A DNA stretch of 64,000 bases from Tupaia tana. Taxonomy: Eukaryota > Chordata > Mammalia > Scandentia > Tupaiidae. A model generated the notes under the pieces. It saw only the letters and a list, made by a program, of their open reading frames with translations, was not told where the DNA came from and made no database searches. This document shows, piece by piece, positions 3,254 to 51,098 of this stretch. The position numbers and the translations under genes were made by a program. Within the stretch, counting starts at the first letter, position 1. Every line of letters starts with the position of its first letter. The DNA lies in NCBI GenBank assembly GCA_026018925.1, contig JAKSZU010000004.1, forward strand, positions 109,489,498-109,553,497, read 5' to 3'.

Positions 3254-4689
3254 TCTCATAGGATACCATACCATCAAGCCCAGGGCCCAGACCCTCCTGG
3301 GTCTCCATGGGCCAGGCTCACTGAAGCCCTGGTCTCTGCCTTTTGGGGAGGGAGGTCAGCTGAGTCCTAGGAGAGTCCTGAGGAGTAAAGGAGGTCGGGG
3401 GAAGAGCCAGCTCGGGGCCGGGTCACAGTGGGCTCTCATGTGCCTCTGTCCCCATCCTTCGCTGCACAGTCCCAGGAGGAGCTGTCTTGGTGAGAACAAT
3501 GATGATGGTTCTTATTTAAAATGCAGCATTTCAGAGGAACAGAGATTCCTGCAGAAGGGCCGGGGAAGCAGGATGCCTCTCTCTGGGTCTTAGTTGAAAT
3601 TCTCTCCTAATAGCTGCTTGGCCCACTGGCTGCTTAGTCACGTACTCAGTCACCGCCATTAGTCACCGTTCCTGGGGGACTCTCATCACAATTACAATTC
3701 CTCATGTTTATTTTTAAACCCAATCTGATTGCCATTAGGAGAACTAGATCCCAGCGGCCAACGTGAGCAGAACCTGCGAGAGAGGAACCATTAGTATCAG
3801 AGGGTCCAGAGAGTATACGTAGCGCTCTGTGGGGTGGGAGCTGGGTTAGAAATCTAAGGAAGACGGGCTCAGGTTTGGTCCTAATGACCCGCTGGGTGTG
3901 GGGCGGGCGAGGGAGGAAACAGCCCGGCTGAGATCATTGTGTCTGTAGTTCTTCAGGGCGGGACGCACAGTAGGTTTAAGAACCTGATGCTGGAGGATGT
4001 CCAGGGGTTTCTGGCAAACCTAAACGTTGTGTTAATCCCGCTGCCTCTCAGGGAGGGCTGGCTGTGGTGATAGCAGACAGTGCAGTTGTCCAGGGTCCGC
4101 TCTCAGAGGAGCCGGGGTTTGGCTTAGTGCTCTGTTGTCAGCATCTTGAAATCTGTAATCACTTTGTCTTCGTACTTGTGTTTCCCGAGGACCCTAAAGA
4201 CATGCATGTGCACAGAGGAGACAAGTCAAGGGGCACGTATGCAGGGGGAGGCCCAGTGAGCAGCACACATGCTGAACAGCTCGCCCAGCCAGCCCAGCTG
4301 CAGCAGGCTGCATGCTGCAGGGCCCGAGGGGCTGGCTGGGTGGGCCGGCAATGACAACGGCCATAGCAGCAGCAGCAGCAGGAGTGCCCTGGGAGAGAGG
4401 GGGAATGCCACGGGGGACGGTGACAGGGTTTGTGGGGGTTTGGCTCGCTGCAGCCTGTCCTTGTGGCATCTGCACAGGTGCGAACTCCCAGCCTCAGCTG
4501 AGCACAGGGTCTGTGGGTGCGGGCAGTGACCTTGTCTGCAAATGATTACAGAATAACAGCCGTGCACTCGAGCACTGTACTAGAGCACGCCGGAGTTACT
4601 GCAGGTCTCCCGAGAGTTTAGAATTTGGGTTTAAAAACTGCTGCAACATTGCAAAGCAAATCCCATAGGCTTTGAAATTGATGTGAAGT
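3254..4689. other. Unique sequence, possible regulatory DNA, no gene recognised
   Basis: About 1.4 kb without a clear repeat. Around 3595-3770 is an AT-richer patch with several ATTA cores that lacks repeat hallmarks and could be a conserved non-coding element. The segment 4300-4400 has a short CAG/CCATAG-rich run. No exon signature was found. Confidence 0.35.
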
Positions 4690-6098: not shown

Positions 6099-6732
6099 AA
6101 CCATTGCTCTATGTAAATTACGCAGTTGGTGGTTTTCAGTTACAGCACTAAAACATGGGCTAAAACAATGCTATTCCCTGGACAAAATGCTTAGCGTCTA
6201 CCTTCCTTTCTAGTTTCTTCTGAGCAGAGTCCCTAACAATGGAGTAAAAGGTGCCATAACAATTCTCAAGACCAAACTCTCAGACCGAGGCTGGAGTTCA
6301 AGAGCAGACTTTGGTGGTCAGATCAGGCAACGTGGTGCAGGGGGTGAGTGTGGACTGGGGGCCTGCCAGCCAGATCCTCCCGCTTCCTCCTTAGCTGTGT
6401 GACACCCATAAGCTGCCCAACCTGTGTGGGCCAGTTTGCACAGCTCTACAGCAGCAGTCACAGTCTGCGTCATTACTGGAGAGGTAATCAGAAGCTTAAA
6501 TAAGACGGTTTGTACACCCTAGCCAAGCACAGGCCTGCTACCTAGCAGCGGTGCAGTAGCTCCAGGTCTCAGACTTCTGCCGCCAGCCTGCTGCAACTCA
6601 CGGTGGTTCGCAAATACTTCTGAGGTAGCGGACACTAATTCAGAAGGAATCTTGCAAGGAAACCAGCTTCAAAAGTAGATATAAGCCCTGCTATTCTGGT
6701 TGGAGTGAGGGTGGGAGGCTGAATACAAGAAT
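6099..6732. other. Unique sequence, no gene recognised
   Basis: About 0.63 kb between a SINE and the GAPDH pseudogene. No repeat hallmark or coding signature is visible. Confidence 0.4.
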
Positions 6733-8036
<1,304 letters not shown>

Positions 8037-8037
8037 T

Positions 8038-8167
8038 ATTGTTTTTAAATTGACCAGTGAGAGAGAGAGAGAGGGAAAGTGAGAAAGCAAGTCGCCAGGT
8101 CCGGGACTTAAACTGCGGTCCGCATGTGGGAGTCCAGCACCTTAACCATCATGCCGACTGTCGGCCC
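8038..8167 (-). mobile_element. SINE-D, antisense
   Basis: GA tract, 'gaaagcaagtcgccagg', then the tRNA-like head to 'cgactgtcggccct'. It abuts the 5' end of the GAPDH pseudogene. Confidence 0.8.
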
Positions 8168-8229
8168 TAGAATACGGGAATATCTTACTAGAGCTCAACT
8201 TATGATTTTAAATGAAGATTTCTGGTTTA

Positions 8230-8493
8230 GGGGCCAGCAGATGGCGTAACGGTTACATCACTGGACTCCCATGTAGTCTACCACAGTTCAAGTCCTAGAC
8301 CTGGCAGCTTGAAACATGCCGGGCGCTTGTACATGTGTGTCTGAAATTCCAAGAGGAGAATGAAGAAGGGATTGCAGTGTGGTCATCCCCCCTGGGTGGT
8401 GATTTCTCACTTCCTGTCTCTCTGTGTCTCTGGTAAGCACACTCACCCTAGAGTAAAAATCTCTCTTAAATAAATAAAAGTAAATTCATAAAA
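8230..8493 (+). mobile_element. SINE-A/B intermediate, sense, complete
   Basis: Full head, body, palindrome relic, CT tract and an AAATAAATAAA-type tail. The 15-bp duplication aagatttc[t/g]ggttta is at 8215-8229 and 8494-8508. Confidence 0.88.
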
Positions 8494-8509
8494 AAGATTT
8501 CGGGTTTAC

Positions 8510-10270: not shown

Positions 10271-10967
10271 AACAGAGTTGTACATGTACAGCAGATGATG
10301 GCTAACTACAGGCGCAGTCACACGGTGGATCTGGCCTCGCTAAAGCTTCTGAGAGCACAACTTCGGAATCCAGCGGTCCATTTGGCAGTTCCATTTTGAT
10401 GTCTCATAAGCCCCTCAAAGCAAACCTCTTGATTCGCTCCTCCTCAAAGCTGATTTTCCCTCCAATCTTTCCCACTGCTCCTACCATCCACCTGGATCTG
10501 AGCCTGCAGTCCGGGAGCTGTCCCTGGTCCCCTCTGTCTCTCGTTCTGCACACACAGCCAGATGCCTCATCAGCGGGCCCTCACACCCCTGTCTCCCTCC
10601 ATCTTCCCCACTCCCTCCAATTCTAGTCATTACTGTATCTGACCTGCCGCAGCAGGTGAAGCCAGTGTCCACTGTGTCCTCGGTCCTTTCCACATTATTC
10701 TGGCCAACTTCCCACAGCCGGTACCTCTGTCTCTAGTGCCCAAGGGCTGCTCTCCTCCAACCTCAAAGGCCCTCTGCCCACCTGCTGTAGGCTGGACATG
10801 CTTGGGCATTCACACCCACTAGCTCCTGAGGGCAGCCTCAGTCAATGCCTTTGGTGGGGTGGTATACATACCCCAGTTCCCTGCCCTTCAGGAAGAACCA
10901 GTCTGAGGTGCGTTTTCAAGTTTCTCTGCAGTAGTAAGCTCTGCGCATGCCCCGTGGTGGCCGGCTT
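10271..10967. other. Unrecognised sequence, possibly an old L2 or LTR relic
   Basis: CT-rich stretch 10390-10720 is loosely reminiscent of L2. 'cttaataaacacctcg' at 10965-10980 resembles an LTR-type polyadenylation region. Neither is firm. No gene is visible. Confidence 0.3.
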
Positions 10968-11094
10968 AATAAACACCTCGTTGCTGGATCTAGCCATTTT
11001 GGGAGAAAGGAAGATGTCCCACTGCTAACTGGGCCTCCAGCATAACCCGTGTGACTGAACCTCCAAGTTCGGGAAGAAACCGACCATCCACCAG

Positions 11095-12090
11095 ATGACT
11101 AGAAATCACTGCAGGACCACAAGAAATATGGGGAAGCAGGAAAATACCTCTCCCACAAAGGAAAAGGATAGCTCCTCTTCATCCACACACAGTTCAATGG
11201 AAATCATGGAAATGTCTGAAAAAGAATTCAGAACATTCATAATGGCAAAGCTAACAGAGATGGAAGAGAAGAGAGACAAGGAACTGCTGAAGAGGAAGGA
11301 GAAAGGAGTTGAAGAGTTCCAGGAGGTGAGGAAATTCATGCAAGATCTAAAAGAGGAATTTCACACTTTACAAAAGAATCAGATGGAACTGTTAGAGATG
11401 AAGGCTATAATACAAGAAGTCAAAATCTCCCTTGAAAGTATTCAAAGCAGACTAGATCATACAGAAAATAGAATCTCTAATGTAGAAGAGAAAATGGCTG
11501 GCCTAGAAAAATCCACCATGAAGACTGAGAAAATGGCCCCAAAATTTGAGAATAATATGCGAGAAGTACTAGATACAATTAAACGTCCAAACATCCGGAT
11601 AATAGGCATCCCAGAGGGTGAAGAGACTCACAAGGGCATTGATAATCTATTCCATGAAATCCTGCAAGAAAACTTTCCAAACCTGGAGAGGCACTCAAAG
11701 ATTCAGTCCCAAGAAATACAGAGGACCCCAAATAGAATCAACCCAAGAAGATCTTCTCCAAGACACATTATAGCCAGATTGACCAAAACCACAGACAAAG
11801 ACAAGATACTAAGACTGGCTAGAGTAAAAAGGCAAGTTACCTACAAAGGGTATCCCATCAGACTAACGGCAGACCTCTCGTCGGAAACAATGCGAGCGAG
11901 GAGAGAATGGGAAAATATATTCAAAGTATTAAGGGAAAAGCAATTTCAACCGAGAATTCTGTACCCAGCAAGGTTATCGTTCATTTGGGAAGAAAAGACT
12001 CGAACTTTCCTAGATAAACAAAACCTGAAAGAATTTACCAGCACCAGACCAGATCTCCAAGAAGTTCTTAAGGGAGTGCTATGTCAGTAA
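11095..12090 (+). CDS. L1 ORF1p-type RNA-binding protein of the HAL1-like element
   Basis: A 331-residue intact frame, homologous by eye over its whole length (about 70% identical) to the L1 ORF1 at 41176-42144. Layout: a short polar N-terminus with a serine run (residues 26-34), a long Glu/Lys-rich coiled coil (about 42-155) for trimerisation, an RRM-like domain starting at about 165 with the IRIIGIPE strand, and a basic C-terminal domain with the 'RINPRRSSPRHIIARL' stretch. In L1, ORF1p coats the RNA in cytoplasmic particles as a nucleic-acid chaperone. Compared with the L1 protein it has an 11-residue insertion (residues 65-75) inside the coiled coil. The ATG at 11095 is chosen because the L1 ORF1 starts with the same MTRN sequence. 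No stop or frameshift is seen, which fits a young copy. Confidence 0.9.
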   Translation: MTRNHCRTTRNMGKQENTSPTKEKDSSSSSTHSSMEIMEMSEKEFRTFIMAKLTEMEEKRDKELLKRKEKGVEEFQEVRKFMQDLKEEFHTLQKNQMELLEMKAIIQEVKISLESIQSRLDHTENRISNVEEKMAGLEKSTMKTEKMAPKFENNMREVLDTIKRPNIRIIGIPEGEETHKGIDNLFHEILQENFPNLERHSKIQSQEIQRTPNRINPRRSSPRHIIARLTKTTDKDKILRLARVKRQVTYKGYPIRLTADLSSETMRARREWENIFKVLREKQFQPRILYPARLSFIWEEKTRTFLDKQNLKEFTSTRPDLQEVLKGVLCQ

Positions 12091-12479
12091 AATTAAATGC
12101 AGACACACAGAAATAAGAGTTCAAAAAGTAAGAAAATGGGCAACTTAATTGTAGGGACAATGTTTGGAGATGAATATTATATCCCAGAATTCAATCTGGA
12201 AGATTGAACCACAACAGAAGAAAGATTAAGCACATGAGACTGAACCAATGAAACAAAATTCTGTGACTTGACTAAATTATTGCTGCTTTTCTCCTAAGCT
12301 TTGTTTTCCGGTTTTAAAGGATTTTTGTCCTGTTTTGAGCTGTTGATAGGTACATGTACCTACTATTTAAACAGAATACTAACCTGTTTCTAGGCTTTAA
12401 GTTTCAAGGAAATATCATTACCAGTTCAAAACTACTCTTCTCGAAATTACCTGCTGAAAGTAGTTAGATTACTTATGAT

Positions 12480-13255
12480 ATTGTGTGATGAACAAAATGT
12501 TGGGGAAAAAGGAATGGAAGACAACTGTATATAGCAGAAATAGTGTAATAAGAGAGTGGGAAAGGGCAGAGGGTCAAACATGGGGTAAAAAACATATATA
12601 TACATATACATATGTATGAAAGCAGAAATGGAATATTATTGATGATAACATGCATGATTAAGCCACTATGCAGTTTATTCTAGATGGGAAACCACATTTA
12701 GTATGTTGTGATGATGCTCAGGGAATGAATGTTAAGTAATTAAAAAAAAAAGTTGCAGGAGAAAAAAAAACGGTAAAACTGTTCGTATAGAAATTATAAA
12801 ACAAACAAACGCATATTTGATGACTGCAGTAAGCTATATAGCCCCAGCTGGGTATTACTTTATAATATGTTCATTCTACTCACTGGGGTTTATGCCTAAA
12901 GTCAGACTTGGGTTCATGTATAGGTATATATCAGCTGTGCTAGCTATTGGATATATTTAGACTAATTAAGTGCATTAGCAAATCAATTAAATGGGGAGGG
13001 GGGAAGGCATAGAAAGCAACCATGGATACCAGAGACAATGTGGGAGGAGCATGGGACATGGCAGAGGGTGAGGGATAAGGAATCAAGGATGGCAAAACAA
13101 AAAACAAAGTATACAAGACATAAGAATTGGAAAATTATTTGCTGAAAACATGTATGTTGATGTGCTTGATTGAGCCAATACACAGTGTAATTTGGATGGA
13201 AAATTCATTTGTATGCTGTAATGATGTATAGTGAATTAATGTAAAAAAATAAATA
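12480..13255 (+). repeat. Tandem pair of L1-type 3'-terminal units in the HAL1-like element
   Basis: Units at about 12480-12760 and 12985-13255 share the order 'gagagtggg...gggcagagggt', 'gataacatgcatgatt', 'ccactatgcagtt', 'gatgggaaa' and 'atg[c/t]tgt[a/g]atgatg'. Related 3' units end the L1 fragments at 27141-27330 and 49578-50235. This is the likely reverse-transcriptase recognition end. Confidence 0.65.
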
Positions 13256-13296
13256 AATTTAAAGAGAAAAAATAAATAAATAAACGCCTCGTTGCT

Positions 13297-13480
13297 CGCC
13301 TTCCCTTTCCGGTATCAAGTCCTCTGCTGCCGCCAAGGCGTTCCCTGCATTTCCCAAATACGCTAATTGCTCTCAGGGTTTGTCCTGGGGGAACCCTAAG
13401 AAGACTAGTTCACTGGAATAGCATCTTATCCCCCTACAAATCTTTCTCTGTACATGAGCCAGACTGAAGCTCTGAAAATG
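13297..13480. other. Short unassigned stretch
   Basis: Continuation of the host sequence into which the half-LINE inserted; no feature recognised. Confidence 0.35.
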
Positions 13481-23065: not shown

Positions 23066-23334
23066 AACATTCTTGGTTGAGGGAAAGCAACGAATTCGAA
23101 TTTTGCCCTGTGGGGAGGAAGGTGATTGTCTGAGAGGAAGAAACACCTCCCAACATGAAGCTAAGAGGAAGCCAGCACAGCTCAAGGTCACAGGGCACTG
23201 GCCTTCTGGCTGCTTGTCTGCTGGCCTGGGGCTGCCAATACCGCACCTCTGGGTCTCCCTCTCTGGGTCTCCCTTGGGCCTTTCCCTCCCTCTCTCCCTT
23301 ATAGAAGACAACCTCTCCTCTTACTTAGCCCCTT
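23066..23334. other. Unique sequence
   Basis: About 0.27 kb without an assignable feature. Confidence 0.35.
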
Positions 23335-23350
23335 AGAATTAGCCAGTCTG

Positions 23351-23621
23351 GGAGCAGCAGTTAGCGTAATGGCTATGTTGCTGGACTCCCACGTAGTCGA
23401 CCGTGGTTCAAGTCCTGGACCCGGCGGCTTAAACTCAGGCCCAGCGTGTGTGCGTGCGCGCCCAAGATCCCAAGAGGAGAATGGAGGAGAAGGGATTGTG
23501 GCGTGACCATCCCCCCTGGGGGGTGATTTCTCGCTTTCTATCTCTCTGTCTCTCTCTGTCTTTCTGGTTAGCGCACGTGCCCTGTAGCGAACCCCCCCCC
23601 CAAAAAAAAAGGAAAAAAAAA
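23351..23621 (+). mobile_element. SINE-A, sense, complete
   Basis: Head 'gggagcagcagttagcg' to an A-rich tail interrupted by a C run. Perfect 16-bp duplication agaattagccagtctg at 23335-23350 and 23622-23637. Confidence 0.92.
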
Positions 23622-23805
23622 AGAATTAGCCAGTCTGAGTCCAACTTCTCCAGGGCAGTGACTCCCAATGACACCATGCATTTCAACAGTGACTGACCAG
23701 AGTCCTAATGCCTCCATCCAAGGGAGAACCCGCAAATCACACCACGCAGAAGGGCTTCTTATTGAAGGCTTACAAAGTCCTGTGAAGTAGGCCAGGCAGA
23801 CTTTT

Positions 23806-28359: not shown

Positions 28360-28378
28360 ATTTTTTTTTTTTTTTGAG

Positions 28379-28416
<38 letters not shown>

Positions 28417-28652
28417 AGGGCACGTGCGCTCGCCAGACACACAGAGAAAGACACAGAGATAGTAAACGAGAAATCACCCCCCAGGGGGGATGGCCATGCC
28501 ACAATCCCTTCTCCTCCATTCTCCTCTCGGGATCTTGGGCACGCACCCACACGTGCCCGGTGTGAGTTTTAAACCACCAGGTCCGGGACGTGAACCGTGG
28601 TCGACTACGTGGGAGTCCAGCAACATAGCCATTACGCTAACTGCCGGTCCCT
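28360..28652 (-). mobile_element. SINE-A, antisense, with a second expanded T run
   Basis: Complete copy with the 14-bp duplication gccttcgtcaatct at 28346-28359 and 28653-28666. In addition to the terminal poly(T), the internal T5 after 'gagagg' has grown to about 32. Confidence 0.9.
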
Positions 28653-28666
28653 GCCTTCGTCAATCT

Positions 28667-29454
28667 TATACGTGAAGAAAGAGAAAATCAGAGGGGTCAA
28701 GACACTTCCCTAAGATCACACAGCTGGAAAGCAGCAGAGTAGGGTGAATTTATGCCTCTGCAAAGCCCTTCCTTTACCCACCGTGCTGGGCAGAGTGGAT
28801 CGGAGCCAGCAGAGTCAGATTCTGACCCACATGGCTTTATTCACATCCCCACTGGGTTTGGTGTCTCCGACATTCAGAGATTTACACCGCCTCTTCTTGC
28901 AGATGCGAGTGCACACTGCCAGTCTGACATTTCAGTCCGGGCTGCTCTCTGCTTCTCCCAGGTCATCAGCCAGCTCGAGAAAAGGGAGAAAAATGAGCCG
29001 TTCCTTTCTGGGGGTCAGATGTCTGCTTCCTTGAAACTTCCCAGAAAATCCTTCTTCTGTGAATTAAATCTTTCTTCGGCTCTTAGCTGGACTCCAAGTC
29101 ATTGATAGGGAAAACCCCCCAATTCATTGATCATCTTGAGAGCTTATCAACTCAGCTAAGATAAAAGCAGGAAACACCCTGGACACTGCTCAGCTTTTAA
29201 CCCAGAAAATGCCTGACATTCTCAGGATGAAGATAAGTGACATTTCTCCTAGTTTCACTTACTGTCTAAAAAGCAGTACCACCGGGGTGTCCTGTGTGCA
29301 AAGCACGCTGCATTTGGTGCAGGAGGTTCAAGGTCGTACAGGGTAAGTCTGCTTTCTCAGGATCGCCCACGTTTAACAGGTCCACTCATGTTTATTAGTG
29401 CACTAGAATTTGGTGGAAAGTTTATTCATTGTGCTGCTAAATAAATAAATAAAT
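28667..29454. other. Unique sequence, candidate conserved non-coding patch
   Basis: About 0.8 kb. The part 29095-29290 is AT-richer and free of repeat hallmarks. It contains two GATA-type words ('ctaagataaaag' and 'gaagataagtg') and 'gagcttatcaactc'. No exon is recognised. Confidence 0.35.
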
Positions 29455-42186: not shown

Positions 42187-45100
42187 ATGGCTCACTTAAT
42201 GATAGGATCAGGTATGGAAATATCAATAATTACATTGAATGTCAATGGATTAAATTCTCCAGTTAAGAGACATAGACTGGCTGAATGGATAAGAAAACAG
42301 AAACCCTCTATCTGTTGCCTACAAGAAACTCACCTTATGGATAAAGACATACATAGACTAACAGTCAAAGGCTGGAAAAAGATACTCCATGCAAATGGTA
42401 ATCAAAAAAAGGCTGGAGTAGCGATATTGATCTCAGACAAAATAGATTTCAAGACAAAGACTGTAAGAAGAGACAAAGAAGGGCATTATATAATAGTAAA
42501 TGGGGTAATCCAGCAAGAAGACATAACCCTTATAAGTATCTATGCAACAAACTCAGGTGCACCTAAATATGTGAAGGAAAGACTGCTGGAGCTAAAAGGA
42601 GAAATAGGGAGAAATACTATAATTGTTGGAGATCTCAACACCCCATTATCTCCTATAGACAGATCTTCTAGACAGAAAATAAATAGAGAGATACAGGACT
42701 TAAATGATACTATAAATGGAATGGGCTTGACAGATATCTATAGAACTTTCCACCCTACATCCACAACATATACATTTTTCTCACCCCGACATGGGACCTT
42801 TTCAAAGATAGATCATATATTAGGACACAAATCAAGCCTTTATAGATTCAAAGGCATAGAAACTGTACCCAGCATCTTCTCTGACCATGATGGAATTAAA
42901 CTCAAGATTAATTTCAAGACACAACCCCGAAGATACACGAACACATGGAGACTGAACAACCTACTTCTGAATGACTTCTTCACTACTGAAGAAATTAAGG
43001 CTGAAATAAAAAAATTTATGGAAACTAATGATAATGAGTACACAAGTGTCCAGAATCTATGGGACACAGCAAAAGCAGTCATAAGAGGGAAATTCATAGC
43101 AATTAGTGCACATAAGAAAAGGATAGAAAGATGGCAAGTAGATAACTTATCATCATGCCTCAGAGAATTGGAAAAACAACAACAAACAAACCCCCAAAAT
43201 GCCAGGCAAAAAGAAATAATAAAGGTTCGAGCAGAAATAAATGAAATAGAAAATAAACGAACCATACAGAAAATAAATGAAAACAAAAGCTGGTTCTTTG
43301 AAAAGATTAACAAGATTGACACACCATTGGCTAGACTGATTAAGAAGAAGAAAGAAAGAAACCAGATTAATCAAATATGTGATGAAACAGGCAATATTAC
43401 CACAGACATAGCAGAAATACAAAATATCATTAGAGGATACTATGAGCAACTTTACGCCAACAAACAAGATAACCTGGAGGAGATGGACAAATTCCTGGAT
43501 GCATATAATCTACCAAGATTGGATCAGGAAGACATAGAGGACCTGGATAGACCCATAACAAGCCAGGAGATTGAATCAGTAATAAATAATCTCCCAACAA
43601 AGAAAAGCCCAGGCCCAGATGGCTTCACTTGTGAATTCTACAAAACTTTTAAGGAAGAGTTAACCCCTATCCTACTAAAATTATTTCTAAAGATTCAAAA
43701 GGAAGGAAACCTTCCAAATTCATTTTATGAAGCCTCCATCATCCTCATCCCCAAAACAGATAAAGATATGACAAAAAAGGAAAACTACAGACCGATATCA
43801 TTGATGAATATAGATGCGAAAATTCTCAACAAGATACTCGCAAATCGTATCCAACAACATATAACAAAGATCATTCATCACGATCAGGTAGGCTTTATAC
43901 CAGGGATGCAAGGATGGTTTAATATACGCAAGACCATAAATGTAATACACCACATTAACAGAAAGAAAGATAAAAACCATATGATCATTTCAATTGATGC
44001 GGAGAAAGCATTTGATAAAATACAACATCCTTTTATGATTAAGACTCTCAGTAAGATTGGTATAGAAGGGTCATTTCTGAACACAATAAAAGCAATCTAT
44101 GAAAAACCTACAGCTAACATTATACTGAATGGGGAAAAGCTGAAAGCTTTTCCTCTGAAAACAGGTACTAGGCAAGGCTGCCCACTTTCTCCACTGCTCT
44201 TTAACATAGTACTGGAAGTCTTAAGTATTGCAATCAGAGAAGAGAATAATATTAAAGGCATTCGAATAGGCAAAGAAGAACTGAAAATATCTTTATTTGC
44301 AGATGACATGATGGTATACTTAGAAGACCCAAAGGTATCCATGAAAAAACTGCTTGAAGTAATAAGTGAATACAGTAAGGTGGCAGGATACAAAATTAAT
44401 ATCCAAAAATCTATAGCATTTCTATTTATGAACAACAAGTTGAACGAAGCAGAGCTGAAGAAAGGAATCCCTTTCACTGTAGCCACAAGGTGTATAAGAT
44501 ACCTAGGGATAAACCTAACTAAGAAAGTCAAAGACCTTTATAAAGAAAACTACGAAAATCTTAAAAGAGACATTGAAAGTGACATAAAAATGTGGAAGGA
44601 CATCCCATGCTCCTGGATTGGAAGAATTAACATAATCAAAATGGCAATTCTACCCAAATTAATCTACATGTTTAATGCAATTCCAATCAAAATACCAGAG
44701 ATATTCTTCAGAGATCTAGAAAAGGCAATCATAGAATTTGTCTGGAACCATAAAAGACCTCGTATTGCAAAAGCAATCCTGCGCAAGAAGAATGGAGTAG
44801 GAGGCATATCACTCCCTGATCCCAAGATATACTATAAAGCTGTGGTCATCAAAACAGCATGGTATTGGCATAAAAACAGACAAGTGGACCAATGGAAGAG
44901 AATAGAGACCCAGAAATAATCCCCAAAGCTTACAGCCAACTGATCTTTGACAAAGGATATCAGTCAATCCATTGGGAAAAGGAAAACATCTTTAGTAAAT
45001 GGTGCTGGAAAAACTGGGTATCCACCTGCAGAAAGATGAAACTGAACCCCCATCTTTCACCATTAACAACAGTCAACTCAAAATGGATCAAAGATCTGAA

Positions 45101-46085
45101 CCTAAGACCTCAAACAATAAAACTACTGGTGGAAAATGCTGGGGAAACTCTGGGGGACATTGGAGTAGGCAAAGACTTCTTAAATAAGACTCCCAAAGCA
45201 CAGGCAATAATCCCTAAAATAGACAAGTGGGACTATATTAGACTAAGAAGTTTCTGCACAGCAAAGGACACAGTAACAAGTGTGAACCGACAACCCTCAG
45301 AATGGGAAAATATTTTTGTTAAATATGCCTCAGACAAGGGACTGATAACCAGAATACATAGGGAACTCAAGTGCCTTATGCGAAAAAAAATGATGAACCC
45401 AATTAAAAGATGGGAAAATGAGCTGAACAAAAGTCTCTCTAAGGAAGACATACGAACAGCCAAAAAGCATATGAGAAAATGCTCAACATCCCTCATCATT
45501 AGGGAGATGCAGATAAAAACTACAATGAGATACCACCTAACCCCTGTCAGAATGGCAAAGATTAAGAATATAAAAAGTGATAAGTGTTGGCGGGGATGTG
45601 GTGAAAAGGGAACCCTCCTACACTGTTGGTGGGAATGTAAACTAGTTCAACCACTGTGGAGAACAATATGGAGGTTCCTCAAAGATCTACAAATAGAACT
45701 ACCATTTGATCCAGCAATCCCACTTCTGGGTATTTACCCAAAAGACAGGAGAACGCTCAGTCAGAAAAGTGCTTGCACATCAATGTTTGTTGCAGCATTA
45801 TTCACAATTGCCAAGACATGGAACCAACCTAAATGTCCACAAACTGATGAATGGATTGGAAAAGTGTGGTATATATACTCTATGGAATACTACTCAGCCA
45901 TAAAAAATAACAAGACCCTGGAATTTGATAGAAAGTGGTCAGATATGGAGGATCTATTGCTGAGTGAAGTAAGCCAGGCTATGAAAGAAAGATATTGTAT
46001 GTATCCACTCAATATATACCGACTATCAGCACTCTATAATAGAGAGCAAAAAATTGGAGGACATAAAAGCAGTGAAGGTACTTAA
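42187..46085 (+). pseudogene. LINE-1 ORF2 (endonuclease and reverse transcriptase), one frameshift
   Basis: ORF2p nicks target DNA and reverse-transcribes RNA there. The first frame (42187-44919, 910 residues) carries the apurinic-type endonuclease with N18, E47 in QETHL, a GDLNTP segment near 150 and an SDHDG segment near 235. The reverse transcriptase follows with the catalytic FADD at residues 704-707. The frame then ends early. The remainder continues in another frame (from about 44892 to 46085) with [18 protein letters not shown] and the Cys-rich '[18 protein letters not shown]' end. The break is at about 44908-44915, in a C run. Comparison with the same region of the twin-primed L1 suggests loss of a single base. 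All catalytic motifs precede the break, but the C-terminal part needed for retrotransposition is out of frame. Confidence 0.93.
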
Positions 46086-49577: not shown

Positions 49578-50235
49578 ATAGAAATCACCATATGATCCAG
49601 CAATTCCACTCCTAGGTATCTACTCAAAAGATAGGAATACACTTAGTTGGAAAAACACTTGCACATCTCTCATTATTCACAATCACTAAGACGTGGAACT
49701 AACTCAAGTGTCCATGAACAGATGAATGGATTGAAAAAATGTGACATATATATAGTACAGAATACTACTCAGCCATAAAAACAAAAACAAAAACAAAAAA
49801 CAAACAAAAAACAAACCAAAAAACAATGAGAACCTGGCATTTGATAGAAAGTGGATGAATATAGAAGATTTACTGCCAAGTGAAACAAGCCAGACTGTGA
49901 AAGAGAGGCATTGTATGTCCCCACTTAATATATATGAACGTCTGTACTCTACGGCAGAAACTGAATGATTAGAAGATATTAGAGCATGGAGAACAATGAT
50001 GATACGGGAGTGTGGGGGGAGAGTGGGATATGGGGGAGGGCAAGAGGGAAGGAATCTAGGGGAAAAGAAAGAAGCAAAGCATTTAAGGGACACAAACTGG
50101 AAATTATCTGCTGATAATATGTATGGTAATATCTTTGACTGGACTAGTACACAGTGTATTCATGCTGGGAAAATTCACTTTGCATGCTATAATGATATGC
50201 AGTGATTGAATGTAAAAATTAAAAAAAATGAATAA
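49578..50235 (+). mobile_element. L1 3' end, sense, 5'-truncated
   Basis: Starts in the ORF2 3' region ('atatgatccagcaattcc'), passes 'ttcacaatcactaagacg', 'gaatactactcagcc', an (AAAAC)n run near 49780-49820, then a 3'-UTR like that of the HAL1-like element and an A-rich end. Frames are broken. Confidence 0.88.
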
Positions 50236-51098
50236 AATAATTTAAGAAAGTGGTTAGGAGAATTAAGCAAAATAATCCATGCTTGGTATACAGTAAGAGC
50301 TCAGTAAGTGCTTGGAGGATCACTTGCTGTGTAGTTCCTATCTCCTAAGTGTTTTCTGAGTGCCTCCACTTCCTGGCACTTGCCCCCCTCCAGCCGGGGT
50401 AGCATTGCTGCGCAACTGTGCACGTTTCCTGCTGAGGATGTCTGAGGCACAGCCAGAGCGCGCCCAAGGGCACCGATGTCAGTGACATATGTACCTGCCT
50501 CCCCATGACCCCCTGTTCTGAGCGCTGGAGCGAATTCTTGCCGTGACCCTCTAGGCTCTGCAGGTCTGCCCTGCTTCCTTGCCTGTCATGTCTCCTCTCC
50601 CTTCCCTCACTGAGCCTTTTCCAGCTACCACCATGAAGTGCACAGCCCCTTCCCACCTTCGAGCCTCTCTTGTGCTTTATTCTTTTCAAAGAAACACCCC
50701 CAATGGTGAAGCCCCTGCCCTGGGTTCACTACAGTCTTCCTGCTGAGAAAGCAGGGAGAGGCAAGCCAAGGAGGAATTAAGTGAAGACGTTGCATCTCCT
50801 CTTTCAAGCCAGCCTTGGCCTCCACAGCCCTGAGGATGGGAGGTGAAGTTGGACTCGCAGGTTCTTACTTGCCTGGACAGTCGTGGGTGGGGATTTTCAG
50901 GCCCTGTCTTGGGTTTTCCTGGGCATATCTGTGACACGTTTGCCCTACCGGCCTTGCCTGGCTCTCCGTCCTCTTGGTCTGTATCTCAGGAAACATGTCC
51001 CCATTGAGAAATTGGCTCTTGACTGCTATACTTGGCCAGGGCCCCCTCTCCTCCTCCCTTGACCAGTAAGGCTTTGTTTAAATGACTGGTCCTCTTTG
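50236..51098. other. Unique sequence, no gene recognised
   Basis: About 0.86 kb. Short antisense frames at 50345-50937 show no domain. Confidence 0.35.

Follow-up and report, generated by a model that had tools for sequence, protein, structure and literature searches.

Half-LINEs (HAL1) are ORF1-only derivatives of L1 that arose several times in mammals, as described in a passage of PMC5753468. The human HAL1 counts about 2,100 copies with poly(A) and target duplications, and the part of PMC5322556 that deals with it presents it as dependent on the reverse transcriptase and endonuclease (RT/EN) of L1. The HAL1 families of mammals are the subject of Bao & Jurka 2010 (Gene 465:9-16), considered here as cited in PMC3627910, PMC5322556 and PMC5753468; the passages of PMC4161310, PMC4859970 and PMC6501411 that concern HAL1 mention it briefly only. 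The initial annotation of the locus analyzed here regarded HAL1s as mostly old and broken. This view has to be qualified, since the HAL1 sections of PMC3627910 report that ORF1 of the guinea-pig HAL1 has been coding for approximately 29-44 Myr and infer that ORF1p in cis and ORF2p in trans are both necessary. Our literature search returned no report attributable to the HAL1 family described below, a result of little weight. The sloth satellite SATCHO2 (approximately 2292 bp, PMC7644632) coincides with the element in length, from which we drew no conclusion; in the part of that paper concerned, HAL1 appears merely in the title of a reference.

The window, that is the whole stretch of 64,000 nucleotides of Tupaia tana DNA that was analyzed, contains at 10986-13278 a HAL1 ("half-L1") with target-site duplications (TSDs), an L1-type ORF1, an ORF2 stub, an L1-type 3' region and an A-rich tail. 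Very probably, this element belongs to a HAL1 family of non-autonomous L1 derivatives, which encode ORF1p, lack ORF2 and would have been copied by an L1 ORF2p acting in trans. Its descent from L1 is visible in the homology of ORF1, of the ORF2 stub and of the 3' end, and the absence of ORF2, with its endonuclease (EN) and reverse transcriptase (RT), distinguishes it from an autonomous L1. Sequence comparison of the edges confirmed the 18-bp duplication with one mismatch that had been proposed: AATAAACACCTCGTTGCT on the 5' side (10968..10985) and AATAAACGCCTCGTTGCT on the 3' side (13279..13296), neither assigned to a strand, are identical at 17 of 18 bases. The 5' TSD is preceded by TT, and we take the resulting TT/AATAAA to be compatible with cleavage by the L1 endonuclease. 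By eye, the insertion target CTTAATAAACACCTCGTTGCT (10880-10985 and 13279-13400) resembles the stretch of an LTR that bears the poly(A) signal. Elsewhere in the window, 6669-8090 on the minus strand is presumably a broken GAPDH-like retropseudogene, as judged from ORF translations. We also observed a SINE of approximately 300 bp with, by eye, a tRNA-like head (e.g., 8200-8501, 23318-23626, and 28361-28670), which reaches a self-match depth of up to 33 within the 64 kb. Scanning the window for Rfam families and tRNAs gave no match.

All internal features of the element lie on the + strand. It opens with a partial 5' monomer of about 67 of 113 bp (10986..11052), recognized by the 113-bp monomer spacing upstream in other copies and probably part of a promoter, followed by a leader that runs from the monomer to ORF1 (11053..11094). 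The leader had been described as full. This did not hold, because the copy begins inside a 113-bp monomer, and most of the promoter may be missing from it. ORF1 (11095..12090), in contrast to the leader, proved as complete as annotated: its 331 codons are uninterrupted according to ORF translation, and the domain search revealed both L1 ORF1 domain types (Pfam PF02994, E 2.7e-31; PF17490, E 1.1e-24). The predicted protein comprises an N-terminal coiled-coil part, an RBD (residues 164-260) and a C-terminal domain (residues 264-326), and residues 114-329 match the L1 ORF1p structure 2ykp (E 4.2e-65). The ORF2 stub (12136..12195) was defined by alignment to the L1 of the window; the alignment, at 64% identity overall, ends at 12195, and the reading frame read from the sequence starts with ATG at 12136 and stops after 23 codons. 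Homology had been thought to cease about 25 bp into ORF2; ORF2 is indeed missing, but the alignable start extends over about 60 bp. For the following 250 bp or so (12196-12447), self-comparison gave no other match within the window. A first L1-type 3'UTR block with an A-rich end (12448..12770) is 63% identical to 12941-13275, and a second block (12941..13275) runs into the A-rich tail (13241..13278). The L1 character of the 3' end was borne out by the segment 13007-13275, which is 71% identical to the 3' end of an older L1 at 49984-50245.

We searched the 2.95-Gb host genome with the whole element and scored the best 40 of 8,282 candidates; this sample 1 consists of the window copy and of 39 further loci at 95-97%. 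In all 40 of these best loci, ORF1 is joined to the HAL1 3' region, window positions 12136-12480 are at least 90% filled, insertions between 12091 and 12785 amount to at most 15 bases, and the duplicated 3'UTR block (12448..12770) is present. Exceptions among these best 40 concern the ends: seven do not have the first 67 bases in place, five stop at 2218, and L047 has an interruption close to its end. This uniform structure is partly a matter of choice, because the loci most like the window copy were selected. A 40-mer from the stub gave 1,605 matches in the genome (795+810) with at most 3 mismatches and 0 for the reversed control; the same type of count for the ORF2 start of the window's L1 is 1,469. 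From 100 listed exact matches of this 40-mer, we chose 20 loci across contigs (sample 2), 13 of which span the element from base ~71 or lower to base 2218 or higher.

Sample 1 had been selected for its likeness to the whole element, and the 40-mer of the stub is itself specific to HAL1; a search with ORF1 alone is therefore the fairer test. The best 40 of 4,176 candidates, which were scored, all carry a full-length ORF1 at 98-100%. For 20 of these 40 loci, we inspected a segment made up of the final 44 bases of ORF1 and the next 400 bases downstream: all 20 segments are HAL1-type, one (L095) over 204 bases and the others over 411-443, and none of the 20 shows an ORF2 match at E 1e-3. Eight further loci, including the window copy, are also HAL1-type, so that 28 of the 28 inspected loci among the best 40 are HAL1-type and none has an ORF2 of its own. 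Eight of the 20 downstream segments (L080, L085, L086, L088, L090, L091, L094, and L095) carry a second 3' type: they resemble the window copy by only 85-90% in their 3' part, against 98% in ORF1, most likely as a result of an exchange of 3' parts between HAL1 lineages.

The copies are independent, L1-like insertions with target duplications and an A-rich tail. Flanks that match exactly over 12 bp or more were found at 18 of the best 40 loci of sample 1, compared to 1 of 400 mismatched flank pairs. This narrow scan left 22 of the 40 without an exact 12-bp TSD; it missed the window copy because of the one TSD mismatch and is blind to the 5' ends of seven copies with long leaders. A wider scan, run without a control, added matches of 15-18 bp in L027, L038, L040, and L048. 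ORF2 matches occur at 8 of the 60 loci, all in flanks or in an L1 into which the element was inserted. In sample 1, they concern five of the best 40 loci and lie in flanks every time; in sample 2, they are found on either side of the element in L057 and L065, as in insertions into L1 ORF2, and in the 3' flank of L059.

At the 5' end, 13 of the best 40 of 8,282 loci have at least two monomer matches (two in 12 of them and four in one). Their spacing is 113 bp at nine of the 13 loci, 108 bp at two others and approximately 320-340 bp at L028 and L043. The window copy has a single, shortened match. In seven of the best 40 loci, the monomers are followed by a different, longer leader; the seven long leaders are 82-92% alike to one another.

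ORF1 is open in 17 of the best 40 loci of sample 1, 16 of them with 331 codons and one that runs without a stop to 333; in six of the 40, its length is not a multiple of three. In sample 2, ORF1 is spanned at 14 of the 20 loci and open at 2. A neutral simulation from an open source predicts 43-49% open copies at 1.4-1.7% divergence, with substitutions only and without indels; the open ORF1 of the window copy is therefore no sign of constraint after insertion. For the variant test, 54 of the 60 copies were kept and L050, L054, L055, L056, L057, and L065 were dropped, among which L054, L055, L057, and L065 are truncated and poorly aligned. Against a neutral expectation of 3.22 non-synonymous to 1 synonymous, non-CpG singletons count 226:72 (stops included; omega-like 0.97), variants in two copies 51:28 (omega-like 0.57) and variants in at least three copies 14:24 (omega-like 0.18, p 2.6e-7). 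This last class differs from the singletons (Fisher p 3.5e-6), also when CpG sites are included (37:32 vs 265:87, Fisher p 0.0004). In sample 1 alone (best 40 of 8,282), the non-CpG contrast is 7:8 vs 176:61 (Fisher p 0.033) with a small shared class, and it is lost with CpG sites (28:13 vs 204:70, p 0.45), probably because CpG decay strikes the same sites in many copies. Between HAL1 and L1 ORF1, dN/dS is 0.173/0.918 (NG86) or 0.193/0.642 (YN00). These comparisons show that ORF1 of the HAL1 source was under selection as a protein.

One locus (L021) allowed us to look further back, as a young HAL1 is inserted there in an older HAL1 (81-1163 and 3512-4333, element orientation). In the older copy, 78-80% identical in ORF1, the ORF2 stub is present together with a HAL1 3' region that holds a single 3'UTR block; the block absent from it is the first one of the window copy (12448..12770). 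As this old copy already lacks ORF2, the ORF2-less HAL1 predates the present family. We assigned to the HAL1 stem the non-CpG changes that are fixed (at least 90%) in young HAL1s and shared with neither the old copy nor L1. They amount to 38:35 (omega-like 0.34, p 6e-6), compared to 48:14 (omega-like 1.06) for the private changes of the dead old copy (Fisher p 0.0024) and 48:41 (omega-like 0.36) for L1 versus both HAL1s. The stem value, set against that of the dead copy, thus indicates that the ORF1 protein was preserved in a lineage devoid of ORF2. Judged on this single old copy, the constraint on ORF1 in HAL1 appears about as strict as in L1 (0.34 vs 0.36), in agreement with the published guinea-pig result.

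In the ORF1 tree, the 54 HAL1 ORF1s stand on one side of a branch with an SH-aLRT support of 100, apart from 9 L1 ORF1s. The median end branch is 0.014 for the HAL1s (0.003-0.036; window copy 0.0097) and 0.003 for the L1s (0.001-0.007), each set consisting of the nearest relatives of one copy. The mean pairwise distance of the best 40 of 8,282 copies is 3.5% (range 1.6-5.4%). The HAL1 copies are young, but older than the sampled L1s. Assuming a neutral rate of approximately 2.2e-9 per site and year, HAL1 would be approximately 4-6 Myr old and L1 0.5-3 Myr. When the genome was queried with a HAL1 copy from among the youngest, nothing above 98% appeared among the best 40 of 8,581 candidates; a query with 430 bases of the second 3' type likewise gave nothing above 98% among the best 40 of 4,576. 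Recent, as distinct from present, mobility of an ORF1-only element in this lineage, as had been proposed, is supported by the many copies, their shared structure, their TSDs and the coding ORF1.

The initial annotation had also named the L1 located 28 kb away as the source of the ORF2 protein. This young L1 (40116-46500) has an intact ORF1 of 322 aa and 4.6 copies of a 158-bp 5' monomer, and the best 40 L1s scored are all 99-100% identical to it. Its ORF2 is split by one frameshift into 42187-44919 and 44892-46085, in different frames. Its ORF1 end branch of 0.002-0.003, which amounts to two or three changes, compares to 0.0097 for the HAL1 of the window and suggests that this L1 is younger than the HAL1 insertion. 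With a split ORF2 and this younger age, it is an improbable helper; some other L1 is to be expected, and any L1 active at that time could have served. The two elements are alike in their ORF1 proteins (68% identical), their tandem 5' monomers and their A-rich tails. They differ in that L1 has an ORF2, frameshifted in the window copy, and HAL1 none, and in that L1 is younger; their monomers (158 bp in L1 and 113 bp in HAL1) bear no real similarity to each other.

Taken alone, the structure of the window copy (ORF1, ORF2 stub, and L1-type 3' end) would be compatible with an internal deletion of ORF2 private to one L1 copy, with no family behind it. Such a deletion would leave a sole copy, or one among relatives that mostly carry ORF2 at about 12160-12480. 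Instead, the stub 40-mer has 1,605 matches in the genome, ORF2 is missing at the same place in all 40 of the best loci of sample 1 and all 20 downstream segments, and an older copy with approximately 80% ORF1 identity has the same stub and 3' region. We therefore rejected this explanation, which is next to impossible on the family evidence. Host selection on the ORF1 of the window copy, as in a domesticated gene, would account for an open frame with both domains. We found no support for it and consider it highly improbable, as 17 of the best 40 loci of sample 1 are also open, approximately the share predicted by neutral decay, and the singletons look neutral (226:72).

ORF1-only copies might also have been made repeatedly from full L1s, so that ORF1 would be kept for L1 and not for the half-element. 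The similar ORF1 constraint in HAL1 and L1 (0.34 and 0.36) would fit this explanation. So would the two 3' types with near-identical ORF1, which indicate that parts do get exchanged. Moreover, the downstream view covers 28 of the best 40 ORF1-only matches and the survey covers ORF1s at 98-100%, not those at 80-98%. However, no L1 with a HAL1 ORF1 is found among these 28, the HAL1 ORF1s group on one side of a branch, the stub and the duplicated 3'UTR are common to all 40 of the best loci of sample 1, and the older copy in L021 already lacks ORF2. Repeated derivation from full L1s is thus unlikely, though less so than the two explanations above, and we retain a HAL1 family that encodes ORF1p and lacks ORF2.

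For this family, the following mechanism can be proposed by analogy with known L1 biology. Transcripts of an intact HAL1 source would arise from an array of 113-bp monomers at its 5' end and be coated in cis by HAL1 ORF1p; the ORF2 protein of an active L1, which HAL1 would need as a helper, would then engage the A-rich tail in trans and, through target-primed reverse transcription, copy the RNA into the genome. The window copy would have decayed neutrally after insertion and would still be open because it is young. SINEs use L1 without an ORF1 of their own, hence it is a real question why half-LINEs keep theirs. A wider reading, to which we give an even chance, is that the coexistence of one ORF2-less lineage with L1 began long before the present family arose, no later than the time of the old copy with 80% identity. 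This lineage would combine an ORF1 as strongly constrained as that of L1, a tandem-monomer promoter that does not resemble the one of L1, a remodelled 3'UTR and exchanges of 5' and 3' modules; it would be a lasting parasite that brings along the protein coating its RNA and depends on L1 for the polymerase alone. The family is large and young, has open copies, offers a neutral yardstick in its dead copies and stands beside a younger L1, which makes the need for ORF1 directly measurable.

The family resembles the HAL1 families of Bao & Jurka 2010, to judge from the descriptions in the citing articles, in having ORF1 only, an L1 origin, poly(A), TSDs, many copies and an assumed dependence on the L1 RT/EN. 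Its 113-bp tandem monomers, its duplicated 3'UTR block and its two 3' types possibly set it apart. With the guinea-pig HAL1, as described in the HAL1 sections of PMC3627910, it shares an ORF1 long kept as a protein in the absence of ORF2, and the same need for ORF1p in cis and ORF2p in trans is assumed in both cases. Coding HAL1s having already been published for the guinea pig, the family of the window is a further example and not a new kind.
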